Source of the DNA: a virus
Direction: 5' to 3' (one strand)
Length of the DNA: 23,262 nt
Virus record (IMG/VR): IMGVR_UViG_3300044638_006031
Location: 1 to 23,262 of that record
Under the pieces are notes generated by a model. The model did not search any database. It saw only the letters and a program-made list of their open reading frames with translations, and was not told where the DNA came from. Below, one piece after another: positions 3,618-15,106 of this stretch; position 1 is the stretch's first letter, and each line of letters begins with the position of its first letter. Position numbers and translations under genes: made by a program.

Positions 3618-4952
3618 TCAACTGATCCAAACTTGAGATCCGTTTTTGGTTACTGAAGTATAAATTATTCCATCATCTGTGTTGTACCATCTATCTCCAG
3701 GATTGGGAGTTCCGGGTGCAGTATCTCCTTCGTAAAAACGAGTGGCATAAGATCCATCAGAATATTTTAAACCAGCTGGTATACTTAAATCTGATGTACT
3801 TGGATCTAAATTAAAGCCTGTTACTCTTTTTAAATCTACTCCAGTGCTATCTACTAATTGAACATCTCCATCGTTGCCTTTAGTAGTAATAGAAGAAGAT
3901 CCAGCCGCAGCATCAACTCTTACATTTGACCCGGATCGCGTAACAGTAAGATTATTGCCGAAGTCAATAAAAGCGACACCAGTACGAAGTACAACGCTAC
4001 CATTTCTTTTTACTCCTAAACCGCTACCCCCGCTATTGTGTAGCGGATCTATTGTCATTGGATTAACTGGTATTGCAGCTAGTTTATCATTGACAAACTT
4101 TATGTCAAAAGAAAGTTCCTTTTTCTTTTCATCATATCTTAACGGATAAGAAGCTGAAACGACACCAGACTCTCCTTGTTCGCCTCTTTCCCCCTGTGGT
4201 CCTTGGGGACCAATAGGCCCAACTGGTCCTTGTTCCCCCTGTGGTCCCTGTGAACCTGCCTTGCCGTTTTTTCCGGCTGGTCCTATTGGTCCCTTTTCGC
4301 CTTGTGGTCCCTGTAGCCCGATAGGACCTTCTGGACCGATTGGACCCATAGGACCAACTGGACCCTGTTCTCCTTGTGGTCCCTGTTGTCCCTTTTCGCC
4401 TTTTTGTCCTATTGGTCCTTGCTTTCCATCAATACCAGCAGGACCTTGTTCGCCCTGTGGCCCCTGTTCTCCCTGTAAGCCTCTTGGACCCATATGACCC
4501 TGTGGGCCGGGTGGACCCTGATCGCCCTTATCACCCCTTTCCCCGTCCTTGCCATCTCTGCCAGGAAGACCTTCTGCCCCGGCATCACCCATGATACCCT
4601 GTCGGCCTCTTGGTCCCTGTGGGCCTTGAATACCGGGTGGGCCTGCTGTTCCGGGAGTTCCTGGAAGACCTATTTGTTCGATTATTTGAGTTTTAATCTT
4701 CTGGGGAGAAGATATTGTTTTTACTGGTTTACTTGGTTCAGGAATAGCAGAAAAATATTCATTTAAATTATTTTCGTGCTTTATGCAAATAATTTCTCCA
4801 TCAGAATCTTTTAAGAATAATGATGTTTTGCCTGAACCTAATTGATAACTTTTAGAATACCATTGCGCCCCAACGCATTCGAAGATTGTATCTCTTTTGA
4901 GATTTGCGATGGTTCTCTTTAGAACTATTTTGTTTCCTAGAGAGAAATTCAT
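3618..4952 (-). CDS. Collagen-like tail-fibre protein
   Basis: A 444-aa protein in three parts. Residues 1-94 form a small globular head of unknown type. Residues 95-262 are 56 uninterrupted Gly-X-Y triplets, rich in GPQ, GEQ and GPI, which should form a collagen triple helix. Residues 263-444 are a C-terminal region with an [17 protein letters not shown] segment and an [18 protein letters not shown] motif (408-424) common at the ends of phage fibre proteins. Collagen-like stalks are known in phage fibres, where they act as trimeric spacers. The start is fixed by a TAATG junction: its ATG shares a base with the TAA of the 41-aa gene upstream. The next gene begins 20 nt after its stop with its own late-promoter-like box. 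Confidence 0.85.
4167..4670 (-). repeat. Collagen Gly-X-Y repeat tract (56 triplets)
   Basis: A run of 504 nt encodes 56 perfect Gly-X-Y triplets without interruption. Many are charged (GEQ, GEK, GER, GDK) and many are Pro-containing, as expected for a bacterial or phage collagen triple helix that is stable without hydroxyproline. Confidence 0.92.
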
Positions 4953-5077: not shown

Positions 5078-5499
5078 AACAATCCACCATCTTCGTTTTG
5101 AAGTTCGAATCTGCCCTTGCTTAACATGTCGCTAAATGTAGTTCCTTTAAATACTTCTATATTATAGAAATGTCTTCCGGCTGGAAGTTGTCCCATTACA
5201 TCAGACTCAAACTTGAAAAAAATTGAACCAGTAGAAGAGGTATCATTTTCGTTTTTATTAGGTGCTATGAAGCGTTTAGAAACATCAAACGATAGTCCAG
5301 ATAAACCAGAAACATAATAAGTTACTCCAGTTAAACCAGCGTACATCAGAAGATTGTCACTTATTGGCAAACTTCTGAATACTTTAAACTCTATTCTTTC
5401 GAATGTTGCTGAAATTGCAGCGTCGTTTTCATCGTAATAACTCAAAAGAAAGTTGAAATTATTACCTTTTATTGCCGAAAGATCTATTTGTGGAGTCAT
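5074..5499 (-). CDS. Putative virion structural protein, beta-rich
   Basis: A 141-aa protein with alternating hydrophobic strands and no signal peptide or membrane segment. It opens with IDLSAIKGNNFNFLLSYYDEN, and its C-terminal half has LPAGRHFYNIEVFKG and an ending LSKGRFELQNEDGG. This pattern (opening strand, an FERIEFKVFRS strand, a glycine-containing turn, a final 'GRF' strand) is seen in small phage baseplate or fibre-associated beta-sandwich proteins. The family assignment is only by resemblance. It starts the fibre operon, 2 nt after the stop of the TPR glycosyltransferase, and overlaps the 41-aa gene by 4 bp. Confidence 0.55.
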   Translation of the reverse strand: MTPQIDLSAIKGNNFNFLLSYYDENDAAISATFERIEFKVFRSLPISDNLLMYAGLTGVTYYVSGLSGLSFDVSKRFIAPNKNENDTSSTGSIFFKFESDVMGQLPAGRHFYNIEVFKGTTFSDMLSKGRFELQNEDGGLL

Positions 5500-5501
5500 T
5501 T

Positions 5502-6716
5502 TTAAACCTTATGCTTCTTCTTCTTATTTATCTTCTTTAACTCCTTTTGTTTTTGCTTCTCCATCATTTCCGTAACGCCTCTTTGTTGTTGTATTTGAGC
5601 AACAATATTTTTATATGATTCAAAATTATTTTTGATTCTGGCTTCGTGTTCTGGAGGAAATTTCTTTTCGCATAAAAGCTTATGACATACTTGCATTCCT
5701 AAGTGAAATTTTCCAACACTATGTGCTACAGCACCAAGCTCATCTAATATACCCCAAGAATATGGTATTTCTTCAATGAAAAGAGTATCTTCATGCGGTC
5801 TTGGTATTTCCATAGCAAGACGAGCATAGTTGTATGCTGCTTTTGGTCTATCATGCATTCTATGCAATCTAGCCAACTGATATAATGGTTCCGCTCTCGT
5901 TGGTCTTGATTCGTATGATCTCATGAACGCATCATAAATTTCTGGCCAAGAATGTTGTAAGAATGTCTTGCATATAGCTACTCTATAAAGAGCAAAGAAA
6001 ACTTCTTCTTCCCATCCTCCCATTTCTGCTCTTTTTTGATATGCTACCAAAGCTTTATCCCACTGATGAGAATCAAAATAACTTTGAGCAAGATAGAATT
6101 GATATCTTATATTTTCAGGATCATCTGCAAGAGCTTTTTCTAAATTTTCAGCATCTCTTGAATATTTTTGTATTGGATCGATTCCAATGTTTCTAGCACC
6201 TTCTGTTCTGGCAACAATTGAGTATTTTCCAGAAAGCTTTTCTATTTTGTATGGTTTTGGCTCTGAATCTGGGTATTCGTGTAGAACGCCAATATACTTC
6301 CAATCACGGTTATTTTTGAAAATTTGGGTTCTCCACCATGTGAATTCTCCTCTACTGAATTGTAGAGTATAGGCATCGACATCTGTTCTTTCAGGCATTA
6401 CAAATTCGCCTTCTACCGTATCATCAGCGTCGATTACCCAAGCATAGTCTGACTTGCCCTTGGCGTTCTGGAATGCCTCTGTACGAGATCCTATCTTGCC
6501 TGCGTGATCACCGAACCCCTTCCAATCAGACTGGTAAATTTCTCCTGGAATACCCTTCTCAGCAAAGAACTTACGAATCATATCCTGAGTTCCATCAGTA
6601 GAACCAGTATCAGTGATATCGTAACGGTCTATGTACTTGTAGATTGATTCAAGGCAACGAAGAATGACATGTGTTTCATTCTTCACGATCATGCATAGTG
6701 TAATTGTAGGCTTCAT
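5502..6716 (-). CDS. Family 2 glycosyltransferase with C-terminal TPR region
   Basis: A 404-aa protein. Residues 1-110 show the GT-A/GT2 fold: ITLCMIVKNE (5-14), DTGSTDGTQ (36-44) and the metal-binding DADD (96-99). From about 184 to 310 there are helical TPR-like units (DDPENIRYQFYLAQSYFDSHQWDKALVAY and later similar segments). The last 18 residues are lysine-rich. GT2-TPR proteins are common in T4-like phages and in bacterial peptide or protein glycosylation, with the TPR part probably selecting the acceptor. It lies immediately before the fibre genes, so a fibre protein is a reasonable candidate acceptor, but that is inference. Sugar donor unknown. Confidence 0.84.
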   Translation of the reverse strand: MKPTITLCMIVKNETHVILRCLESIYKYIDRYDITDTGSTDGTQDMIRKFFAEKGIPGEIYQSDWKGFGDHAGKIGSRTEAFQNAKGKSDYAWVIDADDTVEGEFVMPERTDVDAYTLQFSRGEFTWWRTQIFKNNRDWKYIGVLHEYPDSEPKPYKIEKLSGKYSIVARTEGARNIGIDPIQKYSRDAENLEKALADDPENIRYQFYLAQSYFDSHQWDKALVAYQKRAEMGGWEEEVFFALYRVAICKTFLQHSWPEIYDAFMRSYESRPTRAEPLYQLARLHRMHDRPKAAYNYARLAMEIPRPHEDTLFIEEIPYSWGILDELGAVAHSVGKFHLGMQVCHKLLCEKKFPPEHEARIKNNFESYKNIVAQIQQQRGVTEMMEKQKQKELKKINKKKKHKV

Positions 6717-6725
6717 ATTATATCT

Positions 6726-6754
6726 ATTCTACTTTTTGGGGATGATAAAATCAA
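6726..6754 (-). promoter_or_regulatory. Possible sigma70-like promoter before the GT2-TPR gene
   Basis: Minus strand TTGATT (6754-6749), 17-nt spacer, TAGAAT (6731-6726), then 9 nt to the ATG at 6716. It sits in one of the few gaps (34 nt) and overlaps the upstream stop codon. Both boxes are imperfect, so this is tentative. Confidence 0.28.
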
Positions 6755-7644
6755 GTGTTATTCTTAATCCAAGTTTCAACATCTATCTTTGGCTTCCATC
6801 CTAGATGACTTATTTGTTCTATATTTGCTAAAGTTGATTTAGCTTCTCCCTCTCTTGGGGGCAAATACTTGGTTGGACCACCAATCATTTTTGCTATTTC
6901 GTTTACTGAATAATTCTTTCCCGTACCAACATTCAATGTTCTGGTTAGTAATCTAGTATCACCATAATCATGATTGGCCAAAAGAATGTTTGCTTCAACA
7001 ACATCAGAAACATGAACAAAATCTCTTCTTTGTTCTCCATCACCAACAATTGTAAGTGGTTCTCCAGCTACCTTCTGTCTTCCGAAGATGCCAATTACAG
7101 GCGCATATTGGCCCTTCACTGGTTGCCTTTCTCCAAAGACATTAAAATATCTAAAAATGTGTGTTTCTAATCCATACATTTTAGAATACAATTTGCATAA
7201 TTCTTCTGCATTTTGTTTGGTTACAGAATATGCATTTAGGCAATCTGGTATGGCTGCTTCATTACTCTTTCCACTATTACCATAAATTGCGGAAGTCGAT
7301 GAAAGAAGTACTTTTTTGACTTGGTATTTTCGTGCTAGCTGAAGAACCGTTCCTGTTCCAAGAACATTGACTTCTATTGCCTTAAGAGGATCTTCTATAC
7401 AATTCTGTATTCTCGCCTCTGCTGCCAGATGAAATACTACATCAACATGATTATACATGTCACTCGTCATGACATAATCAGTTACACAGTGATGATTATA
7501 TCTTGCTTTTTTATTGAAGTAAAATTCATTATGTGCGTCTGACGAGAGATTGTCAATGACATTTACTTCATGACCATCTTCTATAAGACGATCAACTAGA
7601 TTCGATCCAATAAATCCACAGCCACCAGTTACTAAATATTTCAT
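6751..7644 (-). CDS. NAD-dependent sugar-nucleotide epimerase (GalE-like extended SDR)
   Basis: A 297-aa extended short-chain dehydrogenase/reductase. The Rossmann motif TGGCGFIG is at residues 6-13 and the strand-2 acidic residue is in VIDNLSS. HLAAEARIQNCIEDP (72-86) is characteristic of UDP-hexose epimerases. The catalytic set is S116/T117 with Y139-x3-K143. The later RRDFVHVSDVV segment is the C-terminal sugar-nucleotide-binding signature. UDP-glucose or UDP-GlcNAc 4-epimerase activity is the best guess, but substrate cannot be read reliably. It is somewhat shorter than bacterial GalE (about 338 aa). It does not look like GDP-mannose 4,6-dehydratase. It lies at the downstream end of the glycan cassette, after a 37-nt AT-rich gap. 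Confidence 0.85.
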   Translation of the reverse strand: MKYLVTGGCGFIGSNLVDRLIEDGHEVNVIDNLSSDAHNEFYFNKKARYNHHCVTDYVMTSDMYNHVDVVFHLAAEARIQNCIEDPLKAIEVNVLGTGTVLQLARKYQVKKVLLSSTSAIYGNSGKSNEAAIPDCLNAYSVTKQNAEELCKLYSKMYGLETHIFRYFNVFGERQPVKGQYAPVIGIFGRQKVAGEPLTIVGDGEQRRDFVHVSDVVEANILLANHDYGDTRLLTRTLNVGTGKNYSVNEIAKMIGGPTKYLPPREGEAKSTLANIEQISHLGWKPKIDVETWIKNNT

Positions 7645-7681
7645 TTTATTTTTTTCTTCTTAAATAAAAATATAAATAATT

Positions 7682-9250
7682 TTATTCGAAAATATAATCG
7701 TCCAAAACTACATAATCAATTTCAGTTTCGGTCAACACATTTATTGCATCTTCAAATCTTGTTAAAATTGGTTTTCCCTTTATATTAAACGATGTATTTA
7801 AAATTATAGGAATATGTCCAAGTTTTTCCATTTCATCCAATATAGAAAACATAAATTCATTAGATTCTTTTGTTATAGACTGTACTCTTGTAGTTGAATC
7901 TTCATGTACTGCTGATGGAATTTTTTCTTTCCATTCTTTTCTTATGAATGGAGCAAATCCCATATATTCGCAGGATCCATCAGTATCAAAATATTTATTT
8001 AAATCTTGAAGTCTTACCATTGGAGCAAATGGTCTAAACCATTCTCTAAATTTTACTTTGGCGTTTAATTTTTCTTTCATATTTGAAATAGAAGGATCGC
8101 ATATAATGCTTCTATTTCCAAGTGCTCTCGGTCCACATTCAGATAAACCTCTAGCAACACCAATAATTTTTCCTTCAACAATCAATTTTGCTATTTGTTT
8201 AGCATTTGTTTTTTTATTTTTGTAAGTTTTTTTGTAATATTCTAATTTAGATTTATCTATAAAATCAAAACCAGAATATTTTATATCAACTTCAGCTGAT
8301 GGTGGATTTGTATAAACTAATGCGCCAAAAGCTAGTCCACAATCGTTGGGATTAGGCGGAATAAAAATATTATTGTTTATTAATCTTCTCAATGATTCGT
8401 TGAAAAGAACATTTAATGCACATCCACCGCTTAAACACACTGGTAAATTATATCTTTTTACAATAGGTAAAATTAAAGAAAAACTTAATTTTTCAAAAAC
8501 ATATTGATTTGTTGCTGCTAAATCATATGCAATTTTCTCTTCGATAGAATCTAAAACATGTAGATTAGGTAGTCCTATTTTCTCGCCCAGCAACTTTAAT
8601 CGTTCTGCTTCCTTTCCATTATTGATTGTATTTAGATAATAAGATTCTATATGATGAATCCATTCCGGGACAATTTTTCCATACGCACAAAGACCCATTA
8701 GTTTTCCTGCATATGATAAATAATTTCCTTTCTTGATTTCTTTTATTGGTAATGCCATAAATGTATATGCATTAGCTAAATCTATATTTGAGGAATAAAT
8801 TTTTGTAAAATCATTATTAATTTTATTTGCATAAAAAATATTAAAATATTCTACGCTATTATCTAATTCTATTCCACCTCCATCAAAAGACACTATTATA
8901 GATTCATCAAATTTTGATGTGTAAAAAGCACATGCTGCGTGGCTAATATGATGACCTACAAATCTAAATTCGTTTATAGAAAAAATTTTACTTAATAAAC
9001 TTTTAATATTTTCTAATGATTCAGTTGTATGTTTTACTATCAAGCCTTCAGTAAAAAATATACCAGGATATTCTTTTTCTATAATATCTTTAATTTCTTT
9101 TAAATAATGTTCTAAGTTTGGATTTGCGAATGCAAGAAAATATCTTTCATTCGTAAATCTTTCTAGTTCATATATTCTATATTGATTATTTGGAAGTTCT
9201 ATTGCTATAGACGCATCATGCGATAAATAAAAGCTTATTCTACTTTTCAT
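7682..9250 (-). CDS. Carbamoyltransferase (NodU/CmcH/TobZ family)
   Basis: A 522-aa protein with both domains of the O-carbamoyltransferase family, which transfers carbamoyl from carbamoyl phosphate, through carbamoyl-AMP, to a hydroxyl group. The N-terminal Kae1-like domain has SHDAS (10-14), GHHISHAACAFY (99-110, metal-binding histidines), SFDGGG (121-126), GKLMGLCAYGK (182-192) and LSGGCALN (273-280). The YrdC-like domain has CGPRALGNRS (372-381), FREWFRPFAP (401-410), STTRVQ (452-457) and LNTSFN (484-489). All core motifs look intact, so an active enzyme is likely; length is near the family norm. The acceptor is probably a sugar, given flanking sugar-nucleotide and glycosyltransferase genes. 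It is very AT-rich, like the genes upstream, and lies 15 nt from the PLP-enzyme gene. Confidence 0.9.
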   Translation of the reverse strand: MKSRISFYLSHDASIAIELPNNQYRIYELERFTNERYFLAFANPNLEHYLKEIKDIIEKEYPGIFFTEGLIVKHTTESLENIKSLLSKIFSINEFRFVGHHISHAACAFYTSKFDESIIVSFDGGGIELDNSVEYFNIFYANKINNDFTKIYSSNIDLANAYTFMALPIKEIKKGNYLSYAGKLMGLCAYGKIVPEWIHHIESYYLNTINNGKEAERLKLLGEKIGLPNLHVLDSIEEKIAYDLAATNQYVFEKLSFSLILPIVKRYNLPVCLSGGCALNVLFNESLRRLINNNIFIPPNPNDCGLAFGALVYTNPPSAEVDIKYSGFDFIDKSKLEYYKKTYKNKKTNAKQIAKLIVEGKIIGVARGLSECGPRALGNRSIICDPSISNMKEKLNAKVKFREWFRPFAPMVRLQDLNKYFDTDGSCEYMGFAPFIRKEWKEKIPSAVHEDSTTRVQSITKESNEFMFSILDEMEKLGHIPIILNTSFNIKGKPILTRFEDAINVLTETEIDYVVLDDYIFE

Positions 9251-9265
9251 ATCATTACTTTATTT

Positions 9266-10420
9266 TTATATACTATTTAAAATATTACAAAGACGCAAAA
9301 CATCTTCCGTTGATACAAATTCATTATTTCCAACATAATAAGACTTATTATGAATAAATTCTGATGTTTTACAATCCTGGTGAATAGGAAATATAAAGCT
9401 ATTTGCTTTGGTGCAAAGAGGATGTCTTAGCAGATTTCCAGCTATTAACGGTCTATTTTCTATGCCATTTTGTGTAAGAATTTCAGAAACTTTTGTTGAA
9501 TCTGAGGTTAAACATATTATTGGAAATGCATAAAGACTAACACCTTCTCTATTAAAATTAGAATAGTATTTTGTTGAATCAATATTATCTAAAAATGTTT
9601 TTAGATTATTATTTCTTATTTTAATAGAATTTTCTAATCTTCCCATTTGAGAAATTCCTAGAGATGCGTGTAAATCGGTATTTCTTACATTATATCCAGG
9701 ACATAGAAAAGTAAATCTTCTATCAACACCATCAACTAGTAATTTTTCTTGCCTTTCTGGTGATAATTCTCTCAACATTCCATGAGATCGTAAAAGTAGT
9801 AATCTTTCATAAAATTCATCATCATTAGTGCATACCATTCCGCCTTCAATTGTTGTCATGTGATGACCATAATAAAAAGAAAAAGTTGATGCTTTACCAA
9901 AAGTTCCTACTTTTTTACCATTCCATTCAGAACCATGTGATTCGCAACAATCTTCAAATAACATTACACCATTATCTTCACATATAGAAAGCAATCTTTC
10001 GCTTATAGCTGGAAATCCTAAAACATGCGTAAGAAAAATATATTTTACGCCATAACTTTTTATATAAATTTCAAGATCATCTAAATTTGGACCTAAATCT
10101 TGTAAATTTGTATCTGTCAAATACAACCCACAATTTTTTGATAATTGCATTATTGGAGTTATATTAGTTGACCAAGTACAGCTTTGTGCTGCCCAATTTT
10201 TTGATCCATATAAATCCAAAGCTGCCTGAACCAATATTAAATTGGCAGAAGATCCAGAATTAACAAATACACTATGCTTGACACCAAGCCATTCAGACCA
10301 CTTTTTTTCAAATTCTTTTACTTTTTCCCCAGCAGTTAATTTAGATACATTTATTACATAATCTGCTAAATTTTTCCTATCATTTTCAGATATCGCATCA
10401 TCGTGCATTAATTTCCACAT
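9266..10420 (-). CDS. DegT-fold PLP enzyme, probable GDP-4-keto-6-deoxymannose 3-dehydratase (ColD-like)
   Basis: A 384-aa fold-type I PLP enzyme of the DegT/DnrJ/EryC1 family. SGSSANL (55-61) binds the phosphate, FEDCCESHGSEWNGKKVGTFG (155-175) carries the Asp that pairs with the pyridine nitrogen (D157), and the active-site segment reads SFYYGHHMTTIEGGM (181-195). Sugar aminotransferases of this family have a Schiff-base lysine in that segment; here there is His186-His187. A Lys-to-His change marks the deoxygenating branch (ColD; RfbH/E1). The Cys cluster that holds the iron-sulfur centre in E1/RfbH is absent (only C240 in that region), which favours a ColD-like 3-dehydratase. The partner SDR is directly upstream, sharing one base. 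Substrate specificity is inferred from motif and context. Confidence 0.78.
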   Translation of the reverse strand: MWKLMHDDAISENDRKNLADYVINVSKLTAGEKVKEFEKKWSEWLGVKHSVFVNSGSSANLILVQAALDLYGSKNWAAQSCTWSTNITPIMQLSKNCGLYLTDTNLQDLGPNLDDLEIYIKSYGVKYIFLTHVLGFPAISERLLSICEDNGVMLFEDCCESHGSEWNGKKVGTFGKASTFSFYYGHHMTTIEGGMVCTNDDEFYERLLLLRSHGMLRELSPERQEKLLVDGVDRRFTFLCPGYNVRNTDLHASLGISQMGRLENSIKIRNNNLKTFLDNIDSTKYYSNFNREGVSLYAFPIICLTSDSTKVSEILTQNGIENRPLIAGNLLRHPLCTKANSFIFPIHQDCKTSEFIHNKSYYVGNNEFVSTEDVLRLCNILNSI

Positions 10421-11340
10421 TATAAATTCTCCATTACAATTTTGTAGGTTTTTTCTATACCATCTTTTAGAGACATAAATTTGTAATATCCAATTATATC
10501 TATTAGTTTTTTTGTCGATACATCTTTTCTATAAACACCGTTTAAAGATTCTAATCCATTAAATTCTATTATTCCTTCATAAGAAATAATATCTTTAATA
10601 ATTGAAGAAATATCTTTTACGGACAAATTTTCATTTGTTGCTACATTATACTCTCCAGAAATATTATTATCAATTATATTTTCTATAATATTTGCGGCAT
10701 CTCCAGCATACATAAATTGTCTAAGAGGACTACCAGTCCCAAGCAAAGTTATTTTTTTATCTTTATTAAGCTTTGCATAATGCATTTTTTTTATTAAGGA
10801 AGTTACTAAATGACTTTTAATATCATTCTTAAAATTATCATGCTCTCCATAAAGATTACACAAATAAAGAGTACAATAATCTAAGTTATATTGTTTTTTT
10901 GCTGCTCGCATCATATATCCAGCAAATCTTTTAGAATAAGCATAAGAATTATTTGTTGGTTCTGGTTCTCCACTATCAACAAATTCTTCTGTAAGTGGAT
11001 AATTGTTTGATGATTTTGGATAAATGCATGTGCTAGACGCAAAAATTAATTTAACTTTATTTTTAGCACAATAATTTATTACATTTGTATTTAATAAATT
11101 ATTAATTAATATAAAGTCATAAGGATTTTCTATATTATCTTTAATTCCTCCTACTTTACCAGCAAGATGGACTATTACAGATGGTGAATACGAATCTAAA
11201 ATTTTTTTTGTATGAACATTATCCGTTAGATCTACATCATTGGATGATAGATAAATAAAATTATTATTTTTATCCCGTAAAGATTTTCCTAATAAACCGC
11301 TACCGCCAGTTACTACAATTTTATCTATAAATGTTTTCAT
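10420..11340 (-). CDS. GDP-L-fucose synthase / GDP-colitose synthase-like SDR (Fcl/ColC type)
   Basis: A 306-aa extended SDR close in size to GDP-fucose synthase (about 320 aa). It has TGGSGLLG (11-18), HLAGKVGGIKDNIENPYDF (58-76), SSTCIYP (102-108), EPTNNSYAYSKRFAG (127-141) with Y133-x3-K137, and NLYGEHDNF (162-170) followed by KSHLV (175-179). The Cys (C105) and His (H177) positions match the pair that performs the epimerisation in GDP-fucose synthase, so a C3/C5 (or C5-only) epimerase plus C4 reductase is expected. Next to a ColD-like dehydratase, the ColC role (GDP-colitose formation) is as likely as GDP-fucose formation; sequence alone does not decide. The start overlaps the preceding GT2 gene by ATGA. 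Confidence 0.82.
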   Translation of the reverse strand: MKTFIDKIVVTGGSGLLGKSLRDKNNNFIYLSSNDVDLTDNVHTKKILDSYSPSVIVHLAGKVGGIKDNIENPYDFILINNLLNTNVINYCAKNKVKLIFASSTCIYPKSSNNYPLTEEFVDSGEPEPTNNSYAYSKRFAGYMMRAAKKQYNLDYCTLYLCNLYGEHDNFKNDIKSHLVTSLIKKMHYAKLNKDKKITLLGTGSPLRQFMYAGDAANIIENIIDNNISGEYNVATNENLSVKDISSIIKDIISYEGIIEFNGLESLNGVYRKDVSTKKLIDIIGYYKFMSLKDGIEKTYKIVMENL

Positions 11341-12083
11341 AAAGTATCTAATCTATCGTTTATTGATTTTTGCCTTATATAATTTGCAGTAGCTTCTTGT
11401 CTAGCAACATTTACTCTATCTTCACTTATTGGATTTGTTCTGTTATAGACATATAATATTTCTTTTAAATGCATCGTTCTTTCTCTGGCCATCTCTAGCA
11501 TAGGAAACATGAATGCATTGTCTCCAGCCATATCAAAATAATTTCCATTTTCATCTTTTAAATCAACTTCATTTATTTTGAGGAATAAATCTCTTTTAAA
11601 TGTTCTTAAATGAGATGCTAACCATTTTGGATATTTCTTAAATGTACCATTTAACTTAACATCGTATGGAAAATCATGATAATGGTGACTGACATCTTGA
11701 TAAGGATAATGACAATAGGTCCCATATGTCATCCATATGTTATTGTTTAGATAATAATTATTTAATATTTCTAAAACAGTATTAGTTGAAAGCCAATCAT
11801 CAAGATCAACTGTTATTATTATATCACAATCTTTTGCTTCTTTTACGCCCAATAAAGTATTTTCTGTCTGAAATTGTCTTTTATTGTTTCTTATTACTTG
11901 AATTTTATCTGTATATTTTTCTTCATAATTTTTTAATTTTTCATAAGTTCCATCTGTACTTTGTGCATCTATACAAATAATTTTAAAGTTATTGTAAGTT
12001 TGAAGTAACATAGATGCTAAAGATCTATCTACCCAATTTAAACAATTGTAGCCGCAGCACACAAAACCATATTTTAAATTCAT
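11337..12083 (-). CDS. Family 2 glycosyltransferase
   Basis: A 248-aa GT-A enzyme. The N-terminus reads YGFVCCGYNCLNWVDRSLASML, then IDAQSTDGTYE (39-49), and TVDLDDWLS (91-99) supplies the DxDD metal and nucleotide-sugar site. A mid-protein HLRTFKRDLF and a C-terminal GDNAFMFPML (about 187-196) act as the usual acceptor-side acidic element. These features support a soluble, single-domain GT2 inverting transferase; donor and acceptor are unknown. It overlaps both neighbours by 4 bp and is part of the AT-rich chain. Confidence 0.83.
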   Translation of the reverse strand: MNLKYGFVCCGYNCLNWVDRSLASMLLQTYNNFKIICIDAQSTDGTYEKLKNYEEKYTDKIQVIRNNKRQFQTENTLLGVKEAKDCDIIITVDLDDWLSTNTVLEILNNYYLNNNIWMTYGTYCHYPYQDVSHHYHDFPYDVKLNGTFKKYPKWLASHLRTFKRDLFLKINEVDLKDENGNYFDMAGDNAFMFPMLEMARERTMHLKEILYVYNRTNPISEDRVNVARQEATANYIRQKSINDRLDTL

Positions 12084-12898
12084 TTTAATTCTCTCATAAA
12101 TTTCAAATAATCAGCTAATTTTTCCTTATCAAACATTTTAATCATATTAAAATAACCAATATTATTTTGATAATGTGGATTAACAACACTATTATATTTA
12201 GATGCTAAAGTTGGACAACAACTATCTTTTGTTCTAGAATGATCTAAATGAAAAAGTAAACCAGGCTCTTCATATATTTCAAATAAATTTGATTTTATTC
12301 TAAAAATAATTTCTGCGTCCTCTGGACCATATCCTTTAAAATACTCGCTCATTAATCCAACATTATCTAACATATGTTGTTTATTTGCCATCAATATTCC
12401 ACCAGGAGGATTTGGAGATACTAACGATTCTCCTTCTATCAATGATAAATTATTTTTTAAATAATCTAAATTTATTTTGTTATTTTCTAAAAGTTTTTCT
12501 CTAAATGTAGGTATTGAACTGTGGTTAGATTTTGGTATATTTACTAATTCAAATTTAAATGGTTTAGAATAATAATATTTTCCATTTTCCAACATTTCAA
12601 AAGAAGAAATAAATTGTTTTTCTGTAACTAAAACATCAGAATCATAAATTGCAAAATATTCTGTATCAATATTTTTAATACCAAAATTTATTAATTTGGA
12701 TTTATGAAAATAATCAGCATTAAAATTTATTGATAAATGCTCATATTCTCCATCAATTTTTGGTAAATAATTACCTTGTTCTACTATTAAAATTTTTGGT
12801 TTATGCGAATAACCATTTAAAAATTTAATTATAGTTTTTATATTATAAAGCCTGTCTTCACTATCAAATTTAAATGGTATTATACATGTTAAATTCAT
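12080..12898 (-). CDS. GT-A glycosyltransferase with galactosyltransferase (GT7/GT27-type) C-terminal domain
   Basis: A 272-aa protein opening with LTCIIPFKFDSEDRLYN, an N-terminal GT-A strand and loop. A YDSDV metal site is at 85-89. The C-terminal pattern NPPGGILMANKQ (163-174), a hydrophobic helix, FKGYGPEDAE (187-196) and a downstream HLDH is the acceptor-side signature of the Glyco_transf_7C group (beta-galactosyl and GalNAc transferases, chondroitin-polymerase-like domains). A transferase for Gal, GalNAc or a related sugar is the best guess. It overlaps the GT10 gene upstream and the GT2 gene downstream by 4 bp each. Confidence 0.75.
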   Translation of the reverse strand: MNLTCIIPFKFDSEDRLYNIKTIIKFLNGYSHKPKILIVEQGNYLPKIDGEYEHLSINFNADYFHKSKLINFGIKNIDTEYFAIYDSDVLVTEKQFISSFEMLENGKYYYSKPFKFELVNIPKSNHSSIPTFREKLLENNKINLDYLKNNLSLIEGESLVSPNPPGGILMANKQHMLDNVGLMSEYFKGYGPEDAEIIFRIKSNLFEIYEEPGLLFHLDHSRTKDSCCPTLASKYNSVVNPHYQNNIGYFNMIKMFDKEKLADYLKFMRELK

Positions 12899-13713
12899 AA
12901 TATTTTTTTTCTTTCTTCATATTTAAAAATTCCATCTAAAAAATATTTTTCAGAAGTTGGTTTAACAAAACTATTAGCTATCTCATAGTTTTTTAAAATA
13001 TGCGGTAGCATTTTTTCATATAATTTAAAATTTACATTTAAAATATCATTTAATGAATTTAAAACAATTATTCCATTAATATCAAATATTTCTCCAATTG
13101 AAGGATCTCCCCAATATATTGGAACAGTTCCAGTTAAAAAACAATCTAATATTTTTTCTGTAAAATAACCATTGACCTTTGAATTTTCTATTACAAGAGA
13201 AAAGCAATAATCATCTAAACCTTCATTTTTTGATTCAATATAATTAAATTGAGAACCATACAACGATATATTATAATTTAATTTTTGTAATTCTTGTATA
13301 TAGATGTGTCTTAATATATGACCACTTGTAACTTTTTTTCTAGAACAAATTGTTGATAATAATTTTGTTTTTTGTGATAATTTAGGAATTACCCATGCTG
13401 AAAATGGAGGTGTATTGTAAAATATTTTTTTATTATCCGTATAATCTTTACAATAAGTAAAAATCATATCTGCATTTGTTTTTTGAATAATATTCAAAAA
13501 ATTTTTAGAATATATTAAATTTAAAATTTCTGGACATTCAATTAAATATAGTAATTTTGGTTTGTCTGTTTCTATAATTTTTTCAGAATCTATGTAAAAA
13601 ATATAATCAGATTCTTCTAAATTATTTGTAATTTTATAATCTTTAACTGAAAAATTAAAAGATGCCCATGCTGGCTCCATACCATTATATTTGTTTATAT
13701 AAATCTTTTTCAT
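12895..13713 (-). CDS. GT10 fucosyltransferase-family glycosyltransferase
   Basis: A 272-aa GT-B protein. The C-terminal half carries the family 10 donor-site signature from 171 to 202: FSLVIENS, then GYFTEKILDCF, then GTVPIYWG, matching the conserved block of alpha-1,3/4-fucosyltransferases that binds GDP-fucose. The N-terminal half is the more variable acceptor domain (LLYLIECPEI at 54-63 and MIFTY at 83-87). It is shorter than bacterial GT10 enzymes such as H. pylori FucT and has no heptad repeats or membrane anchor. A GDP-deoxyhexose donor fits the ColC/Fcl- and ColD-like genes downstream. Linkage and acceptor unknown. Confidence 0.85.
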   Translation of the reverse strand: MKKIYINKYNGMEPAWASFNFSVKDYKITNNLEESDYIFYIDSEKIIETDKPKLLYLIECPEILNLIYSKNFLNIIQKTNADMIFTYCKDYTDNKKIFYNTPPFSAWVIPKLSQKTKLLSTICSRKKVTSGHILRHIYIQELQKLNYNISLYGSQFNYIESKNEGLDDYCFSLVIENSKVNGYFTEKILDCFLTGTVPIYWGDPSIGEIFDINGIIVLNSLNDILNVNFKLYEKMLPHILKNYEIANSFVKPTSEKYFLDGIFKYEERKKIL

Positions 13714-14483
13714 ATTAAAAGCATATCATTTCTATAGATCTTTTCCCAATTTTTAAAAGGAGGTATATTATACCATTTATTTGGAGCTACTATCTTTTTG
13801 TCTAAATTTTCATTTATCCAAGATGCCCACCAAGAATAAGAACTGTTAGAAATTATATTATGATCACATAAAGACATAAGAATAAAATCTATTTCTGGAT
13901 CGTTATTCATTATGATGTTTGGTATTTGTTTAAATACATGCGAACACCATAATTTATCATCTGTAAAAATTATATAAAAATAATTTGGTCCAAAAAAATT
14001 GACTGCTCTTTGAAAATAATTTTCATCACAAACATAATGAATATGTTTTGCTATAGGATGTAAATAATCTCCTCTGCGAACATGTATTGCTACTAATTCT
14101 TTATTTTTTTCTTCTTTTAGTTTTTTAATAAAATTTATACAAGTATTATGTTTTTCTTTGTCAAAAGTAAATATATTTCGTAAATCATATTCATTTTCTT
14201 TAATGTAATCTGCATTTTGAAAATATCCCAAAATATCTGTACCATCATTTATTAATGATGCATCTATCGTTTCAGAATTATCTGTTTGTAAAAATAATGT
14301 ATTTTGTTTAATATCATCAGAATTCTCGGCTGGTAATTTAAACATTTTAGACAATAAAGAATTATATTTAAAATCAAAACCTATTTGTATATTTTTTTTC
14401 TTTCCAATATGGTATAAAAATGCAAATTGAAACATTTGATTTCCCAACCAACCATATTTTCCCAATTTTTTAAATGTGATCAT
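13710..14483 (-). CDS. GT11 alpha-1,2-fucosyltransferase-family glycosyltransferase
   Basis: A 257-aa protein with the family 11 motifs in order: GWLGNQMFQFAF (11-22, the canonical N-terminal G-L-G-N-Q-x-F-Q), AIHVRRGDY (132-140, donor-binding HxRRxDY), FTDD (173-176), and HNIISNSSYSWWASW (208-222). GT11 members include bacterial alpha-1,2-fucosyltransferases and the colitosyltransferase of some O-antigen clusters. With the GT10 gene and the deoxyhexose genes nearby this supports transfer of an L-fuco-configured sugar. No membrane segment is seen. Coupled to both neighbours by 4-bp overlaps. Confidence 0.88.
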   Translation of the reverse strand: MITFKKLGKYGWLGNQMFQFAFLYHIGKKKNIQIGFDFKYNSLLSKMFKLPAENSDDIKQNTLFLQTDNSETIDASLINDGTDILGYFQNADYIKENEYDLRNIFTFDKEKHNTCINFIKKLKEEKNKELVAIHVRRGDYLHPIAKHIHYVCDENYFQRAVNFFGPNYFYIIFTDDKLWCSHVFKQIPNIIMNNDPEIDFILMSLCDHNIISNSSYSWWASWINENLDKKIVAPNKWYNIPPFKNWEKIYRNDMLLI

Positions 14484-15106
14484 GATCTAATTTCCAATTC
14501 ACACTTTGTAAGATACTCCCATTTATTTGCACTATCAGCGGCATCTGCCTGATAAAAAACTGGTTTATTTGGAGTTAATACCTGAAAATATCTTTGAAGA
14601 AAGGCACAACCGACATCAAATGGAGTATGTCGATTATAAACCAAATCTTTTGACATAATTATTGCTTCTTTTCTATATCTTTCGCTTGTGTATAGAATTG
14701 AATGTGTTGCCAAAATTCCAGCAATCCTTTTATACTCTGTATTGTATTGGATACAAGTATATCCTCTATTGCCTATACTAACTCCAAGATATAATGCATC
14801 TGTTTCGTCTGGAACTTCTAATATAGGATTAAAGTTTTCTTCAATGACTTCAGCATCATCTTCAAGAATTAAAAATGGCGTTTTTAGATCTGAAAGTTCA
14901 AATATATCAATGTGTGATTGAGCACAACCAACATAGTGCTTATTTGCTGGTATAGTTTCCGGTGGAGATGGAATAACTCTAGCAGACTTTCTAATAGTGT
15001 TCTTGAAGCCTAGCTTCTCAAACATCTTAGTCATTCGTTCTGCGTTTTTAGTTGCTGTGTCTAGATTAATCCAATATACTGGTATTTCACGAAGATCTAT
15101 TTTCAT
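14480..15106 (-). CDS. Family 25 (LPS-type) glycosyltransferase
   Basis: A 208-aa protein with the family 25 layout: IPVYWINLDTATKNAERM (8-25, the N-terminal INLD...R signature), GCAQSH (60-65), and FLILEDDAEV (78-87), the metal-site LEDDA. Family 25 includes LPS beta-1,4-galactosyltransferases and procollagen galactosyltransferases. The latter act on collagen, and this phage has a collagen-like fibre 10 kb away; that coincidence is noted without claiming a link. The ATG lies inside the end of the preceding 102-aa gene (20-bp overlap). Base composition is less extreme than in the genes that follow. Confidence 0.78.
   Translation of the reverse strand: MKIDLREIPVYWINLDTATKNAERMTKMFEKLGFKNTIRKSARVIPSPPETIPANKHYVGCAQSHIDIFELSDLKTPFLILEDDAEVIEENFNPILEVPDETDALYLGVSIGNRGYTCIQYNTEYKRIAGILATHSILYTSERYRKEAIIMSKDLVYNRHTPFDVGCAFLQRYFQVLTPNKPVFYQADAADSANKWEYLTKCELEIRS

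Follow-up and report, generated by a model that had tools for sequence, protein, structure and literature searches.

What would a phage do with an enzyme of the kind that places carbamoyl groups on hydroxyls, encoded within a cluster of sugar-modifying genes? The gene in question lies in the window, the whole 23,262-base stretch analysed here, which is a viral-contig record and a fragment of a longer genome. Read along its minus strand, the window starts with a UvsW-like helicase fragment, followed by genes for gp55-like, gp47, gp46, the gp45 clamp, gp44, gp62 and RegA; after RegA come the glycan island (15106 to 6751), a TPR-bearing GT2 glycosyltransferase, tail-fibre and structural genes, and a dUTPase (Table 1). 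The names gp44, gp45 and RegA rest on family matches and gp46 on phage matches; those of gp47, gp62, gp55 and UvsW come from sequence resemblance and gene order. The best gp46 matches are T4-like cyanophages (about 44% identity), which places the source, an uncultured T4-like phage, in their broad group.

Table 1. The carbamoyltransferase gene and its neighbours, with positions in the window.
Feature	Position	Strand	Matches and remarks
Collagen-like tail-fibre protein, a short way downstream of the island	3618..4952	minus	PF01391, several tail-fibre PHROGs
GT2 glycosyltransferase with TPR repeats	5502..6716	minus	PF00535 and TPR, phrog_13126
GalE-like SDR, nucleotide-sugar epimerase/dehydratase	6751..7644	minus	PF01370, PDB 4zrm
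TobZ/NodU-type O-carbamoyltransferase (Kae1-like N domain and YrdC-like C domain), 522 aa	7682..9250	minus	PHROG 1601
ColD-like PMP-dependent sugar 3-dehydratase, DegT fold	9266..10420	minus	PF01041; 2gms ColD
GDP-L-fucose-synthase/ColC-like epimerase-reductase (SDR)	10420..11340	minus	GDPFucSynFcl, PDB GDP-L-fucose synthases
GT2 glycosyltransferase	11337..12083	minus	PF00535; 59% identical in L046
Putative GT7C-like glycosyltransferase	12080..12898	minus	weak PF02709 below cut-off, phrog_15655
GT10 (fucosyltransferase family) glycosyltransferase	12895..13713	minus	PF00852
GT11 (alpha-1,2-fucosyltransferase family) glycosyltransferase	13710..14483	minus	PF01531, phrog_2644
GT25-like glycosyltransferase, first island gene	14480..15106	minus	PF01755 marginal, phrog_24091; 57% identical in L046

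Integrity and spread of the carbamoyltransferase

The open reading frame has an ATG start and 522 codons with no internal stop, and its product matches both family domains well above their cut-offs (PF02543, Carbam_trans_N, 72 bits against 24; PF16861, Carbam_trans_C, 194 bits against 27), as well as the PHROG 1601 profile over its full length (residues 8-521, E = 2e-115). In GdmN, iron is bound by two His and two Asp, which class III carbamoyltransferases conserve, and H27 acts as the base (PMC9633730). By comparison with that enzyme, the window protein has four metal ligands (H100, H104, D123 and D303), which are invariant in every homologue covering those positions in an alignment of about 160, and its H11 aligns with the catalytic base (TobZ H14, GdmN H27). 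The base His and the adenylation-site motifs are likewise kept in this alignment, and the protein retains GPRALGNRS (373-381), K400, R402, R406 and the NTSFN motif (485-489). Moreover, its AlphaFold2 model (mean pLDDT 93.9) superposes end to end on TobZ and GdmN (Z of about 38), with 498 residues aligned to TobZ 3ves (Z 38.5, rmsd 2.6). Family, residues and predicted fold thus confirm an intact class III (TobZ/NodU/CmcH-type) O-carbamoyltransferase, as the preliminary description had read it from the two domains and their recognisable motifs; with ligands, base and adenylation-site motifs in place and the fold predicted from end to end, the loss of essential residues that it had named as the argument against this reading is not seen.

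Cyanophage 'carbamoyltransferase' genes have been placed in nucleotide synthesis (PMC9146016, PMC10436341), a reading under which the window gene would be an auxiliary pyrimidine-synthesis gene of the aspartate carbamoyltransferase (pyrB) type. The only Pfam matches of the window protein are the two carbamoyltransferase domains above, with no aspartate or ornithine carbamoyltransferase family among them, and its next fold matches after TobZ and GdmN are HypF and TsaD. Family and predicted fold rule out an aspartate or ornithine carbamoyltransferase, leaving the pyrimidine reading with next to no probability, and a TobZ/NodU-type phage carbamoyltransferase should not be taken for a sign of pyrimidine metabolism. 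Judged from the descriptions in the two papers, their pyrimidine-synthesis 'carbamoyltransferase' genes may themselves be misread O-carbamoyltransferases.

The enzyme had also been called unusual on a phage, which does not hold. A tblastn search detects relatives in 140 phage records; all are below 60% identity, and 97 cover at least 80% of the query. Further, an alignment-based pattern scan of IMG/VR viral contigs yields at least 566 stretches that encode relatives; when the window protein was used as a single query, viral contigs gave no match, and the same was true of the GT7C-like protein. PHROG 1601 already bears the name 'Nol-like carbamoyltransferase', and a 2010 comparison of T4-like phages tabulates a carbamoyltransferase for several cyanophages (PMC3037559). 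The window enzyme is therefore an unremarkable example of an enzyme type that is already known but little studied, common in marine phages and poorly understood, with relatives in many bacterial genomes as well. In a tree of phage and bacterial homologues, it sits in a 24-tip phage clade (support 0.96), whose richness in phages is partly a product of sampling because the homologues were the top scorers against an alignment begun from the window protein.

The glycan island and its recurrence in phages

The island genes abut or overlap on one strand, and their GC content is 27.2%, compared to 37-40% in the flanks; all three islands tested are AT-rich in this way (27-29% GC against 37-45%). Deoxyhexose and fucosyltransferase-family neighbours, as first described, are present in the form of a ColD-like dehydratase, a GDP-fucose-synthase-like (Fcl) SDR, GT10 and GT11. 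In particular, the ColD-like protein has ColD (2gms) as its best PDB match (178.9 bits), and in that comparison a His replaces the PLP-binding Lys of aminotransferases (alignment FSFYYGHHMTTIEGG against FSSFYSHHIATMEGG). The Fcl-like protein scores 200 bits against NCBIfam GDPFucSynFcl, under its cut-off of 500; it is closest to GDP-L-fucose synthases, as one would expect for ColC. The 23 kb window yielded no clear GMD gene; its other SDR is GalE-like.

The carbamoyltransferase/Fcl/ColD combination recurs in phages. The search for it that had been proposed located all three genes together in nine other viral contigs (L041, L042, L045, L049, L057, L058, L081, L089 and L109). For example, in L041 the carbamoyltransferase, Fcl and ColD genes overlap in series and are followed by a GMD-like gene, and in L081 (2386-10406) the set is divided: the interval from gp45 to gp44 contains Fcl and ColD, and that from RegA to TPR-GT2 contains the carbamoyltransferase together with GT25, GT11 and GT10. 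ColD is enriched in the window enzyme's clade, at 8 of 23 tips compared to 2 of 62 other phage tips (Fisher p = 3e-4, with tips counted as independent and shared ancestry uncorrected). The phages S-CAM7 and ACG-2014f have an epimerase, an Fcl-like enzyme, ColD and GT11 in a row, with tail-fibre genes close by and no carbamoyltransferase found within the 45 kb read; the epimerase-Fcl-ColD order suggests a GDP-sugar substrate for the ColD-like enzyme.

Two contigs illustrate the modularity of the island. The sister contig L046 has a backbone colinear with the window (gp55-like, 47, 46, 45, 44, 62, RegA and TPR-GT2; 43-60% identity), and its island sits in the interval between UvsW-like and gp55-like genes (5255-12524), whereas that of the window sits between RegA and TPR-GT2 (6751-15106). 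L046 keeps the window order of GT25, GT11, GT10, GT7C, GT2, carbamoyltransferase and SDR, the last being 61% identical to its window counterpart, and a further glycosyltransferase occupies the place of Fcl and ColD. Since neither ColD nor a close Fcl was seen in L046, the carbamoyltransferase is separable from them, and the carbamoylated residue need not be a dideoxyhexose. In L011, an FkbM-domain methyltransferase (6982-7674) has GT10-Fcl-ColD on one side and an SDR on the other, filling the carbamoyltransferase slot in a window-like order; this is a possible exchange of one hydroxyl-capping enzyme for another. The L011 island adjoins the gp32 gene.

The likely acceptor: DNA, host glycan or virion glycan

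For another phage carbamoyltransferase with the same two domains, 5-carbamoyloxymethylcytosine chemistry was proven in vitro (MetaGPA; PMC8670742), and the preliminary description had listed hypermodification of phage DNA among the possible roles of the window enzyme. Residues, phylogeny and neighbourhood all disfavour it. The six DNA-type enzymes (the 5hmC carbamoyltransferase of PMC8670742, the one that has been assayed, with those of Xp15, Effie, BF503P2, BF486P2 and L202) form a separate clade with a support of 1.0, and the window enzyme falls outside it. In window numbering, all six have T380, N400 and M406, and five of six have C378; at these positions the window enzyme, like TobZ, has R380, K400, R406 and G378; two of the three differentiating residues flagged in PMC8670742 (TobZ G421 and R423) correspond to positions 378 and 380. 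Moreover, homologues of thymidylate synthase or hydroxymethylase occur at 5 of 5 DNA-clade loci, compared to 1 of 89 other phage sequences (L120, a weak match), and none was found within the window, itself a genome fragment beyond which a hydroxymethylase gene may lie. It is thus very improbable that the window enzyme makes 5-carbamoyloxymethylcytosine. A few residues and the gene neighbourhood divide the DNA-modifying clade from the glycan-island clade, so that annotation becomes testable. The relatives of the 5hmC carbamoyltransferase in Xp15, Effie, BF503P2 and BF486P2 (L203, L204, L205 and L206) lie near the hydroxymethylase or thymidylate-synthase homologues, and several of them are annotated merely as hypothetical or Nol-like.

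A sugar is the favoured acceptor because of the methyltransferase found in the same slot, the company of the island genes and the missing dimerisation domain: at 522 aa, the window enzyme has no room for the GdmN-type C-terminal dimerisation domain, and class III enzymes without it usually act on polar recipients (PMC9633730). By analogy with TobZ and GdmN, the product would be a cytosolic enzyme whose YrdC-like domain converts carbamoyl phosphate and ATP to carbamoyl-AMP, and whose Kae1-like domain, with a metal on the four ligands and H11 as the base, delivers the carbamoyl to a hydroxyl. Most likely, this hydroxyl would belong to a sugar made by the island, be it a nucleotide sugar or an oligosaccharide still being extended. 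The island enzymes would suit a deoxyhexose of the GDP-L-fucose or GDP-colitose type, and the GT10, GT11, GT2 and GT25-type transferases may assemble the glycan that bears it. The gene therefore probably serves to O-carbamoylate a sugar, at a hydroxyl, in a glycan that the phage itself makes, most likely one attached to a virion protein, for instance a tail fibre.

The same genes could instead rewrite the surface polysaccharide of the host (LPS or O-antigen), with O-carbamoylation masking the receptor against superinfecting phages. In favour of this reading, the set of carbamoyltransferase, Fcl, ColD, GT10 and GT11 is typical of surface-polysaccharide synthesis, and relatives of the carbamoyltransferase occur in many bacterial genomes. 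Modification of the host O-chain is also what the authors of PMC7029224 favour for glycosyltransferases in the host-recognition islands of pelagimyophages. Against it, the ten glycan proteins of the window have no transmembrane-like stretch and no match to a flippase, polymerase or lipid-carrier transferase family, an argument that is not decisive for a 23 kb fragment, beyond which flippase, polymerase and GMD genes may lie. A lytic T4-like phage would also have little time to replace a surface glycan, a consideration that likewise does not decide the matter. With ten soluble-looking proteins and no export genes found in the fragment, a carbamoylated glycan on the virion is more likely than one on a host polysaccharide, and the host reading is judged unlikely.

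The closeness of tail-fibre genes to the island, downstream of it in the window and also seen for the Fcl-ColD-GT11 islands of S-CAM7 and ACG-2014f, speaks for a virion target; the L046 island stands away from structural genes. As a general rule, tail-fibre adjacency found no support, with collagen-like ORFs at 3 of 94 phage loci and 1 of 80 bacterial control loci. The collagen-like tail-fibre protein of the window has a long Gly-X-Y stretch. The TPR-GT2 gene adjoins structural genes and stays at their border in L046 too, where the island is elsewhere; its product could be a protein-glycosylating initiator.

A narrower version of the virion-glycan reading is that the phage carries an O-carbamoylated 3,6-dideoxy-L-hexose, similar to a carbamoyl-colitose, on its own tail fibres, and that related phages swap the cap (carbamoyl or methyl) as a diversifying module; in this specific form, the proposal is a long shot. 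A literature search for carbamoylated or colitose-bearing phage glycans found nothing specific, and virion carbamoylation, if true, would add to phage glycans a chemical group for which that search turned up no report. Of the initial interpretation, the family assignment, the intactness of the enzyme and its link to a deoxyhexose/fucosyltransferase cassette stand; the claim of rarity falls, and the DNA role has lost ground.

Comparison with known systems

The antibiotic-pathway class III O-carbamoyltransferases TobZ, GdmN, NovN and VtdB share the whole-protein fold, metal ligands, base His and adenylation-site motifs of the window protein at 23-27% identity, though their acceptors are an aminoglycoside, an ansamycin and other natural products, and GdmN has the extra dimerisation domain. 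The rhizobial Nod-factor carbamoyltransferases NodU and NolO belong to the same family, but the window protein reaches 160.8 bits with the NodU equivalog NF041651, whose cut-off is 1000. In NGR234, NolO adjoins the sugar O-methyltransferase NoeI, an arrangement comparable to the swap of carbamoyltransferase and methyltransferase seen here. The phage 5hmC carbamoyltransferases (MetaGPA, Xp15, Effie and BF503P2) are phage-encoded and have the same two domains and catalytic ligands, but differ in their clade, YrdC-domain residues and DNA-metabolism neighbours.

Among PHROG 1601 phages, the Synechococcus phages Bellamy and SynMITS9220M01 are T4-like marine phages with full-length homologues (about 38% identity) and carbohydrate gene clusters, which differ from the window in having heptose-type genes and no ColD or Fcl match in the stretch read. 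The IMG/VR contigs L041, L042 and L057 carry, within one stretch, genes for Fcl, ColD, GMD-like, GT10 and GT11 proteins and for a carbamoyltransferase of 39-43% identity, which in these contigs, unlike in the window, is encoded upstream of Fcl.
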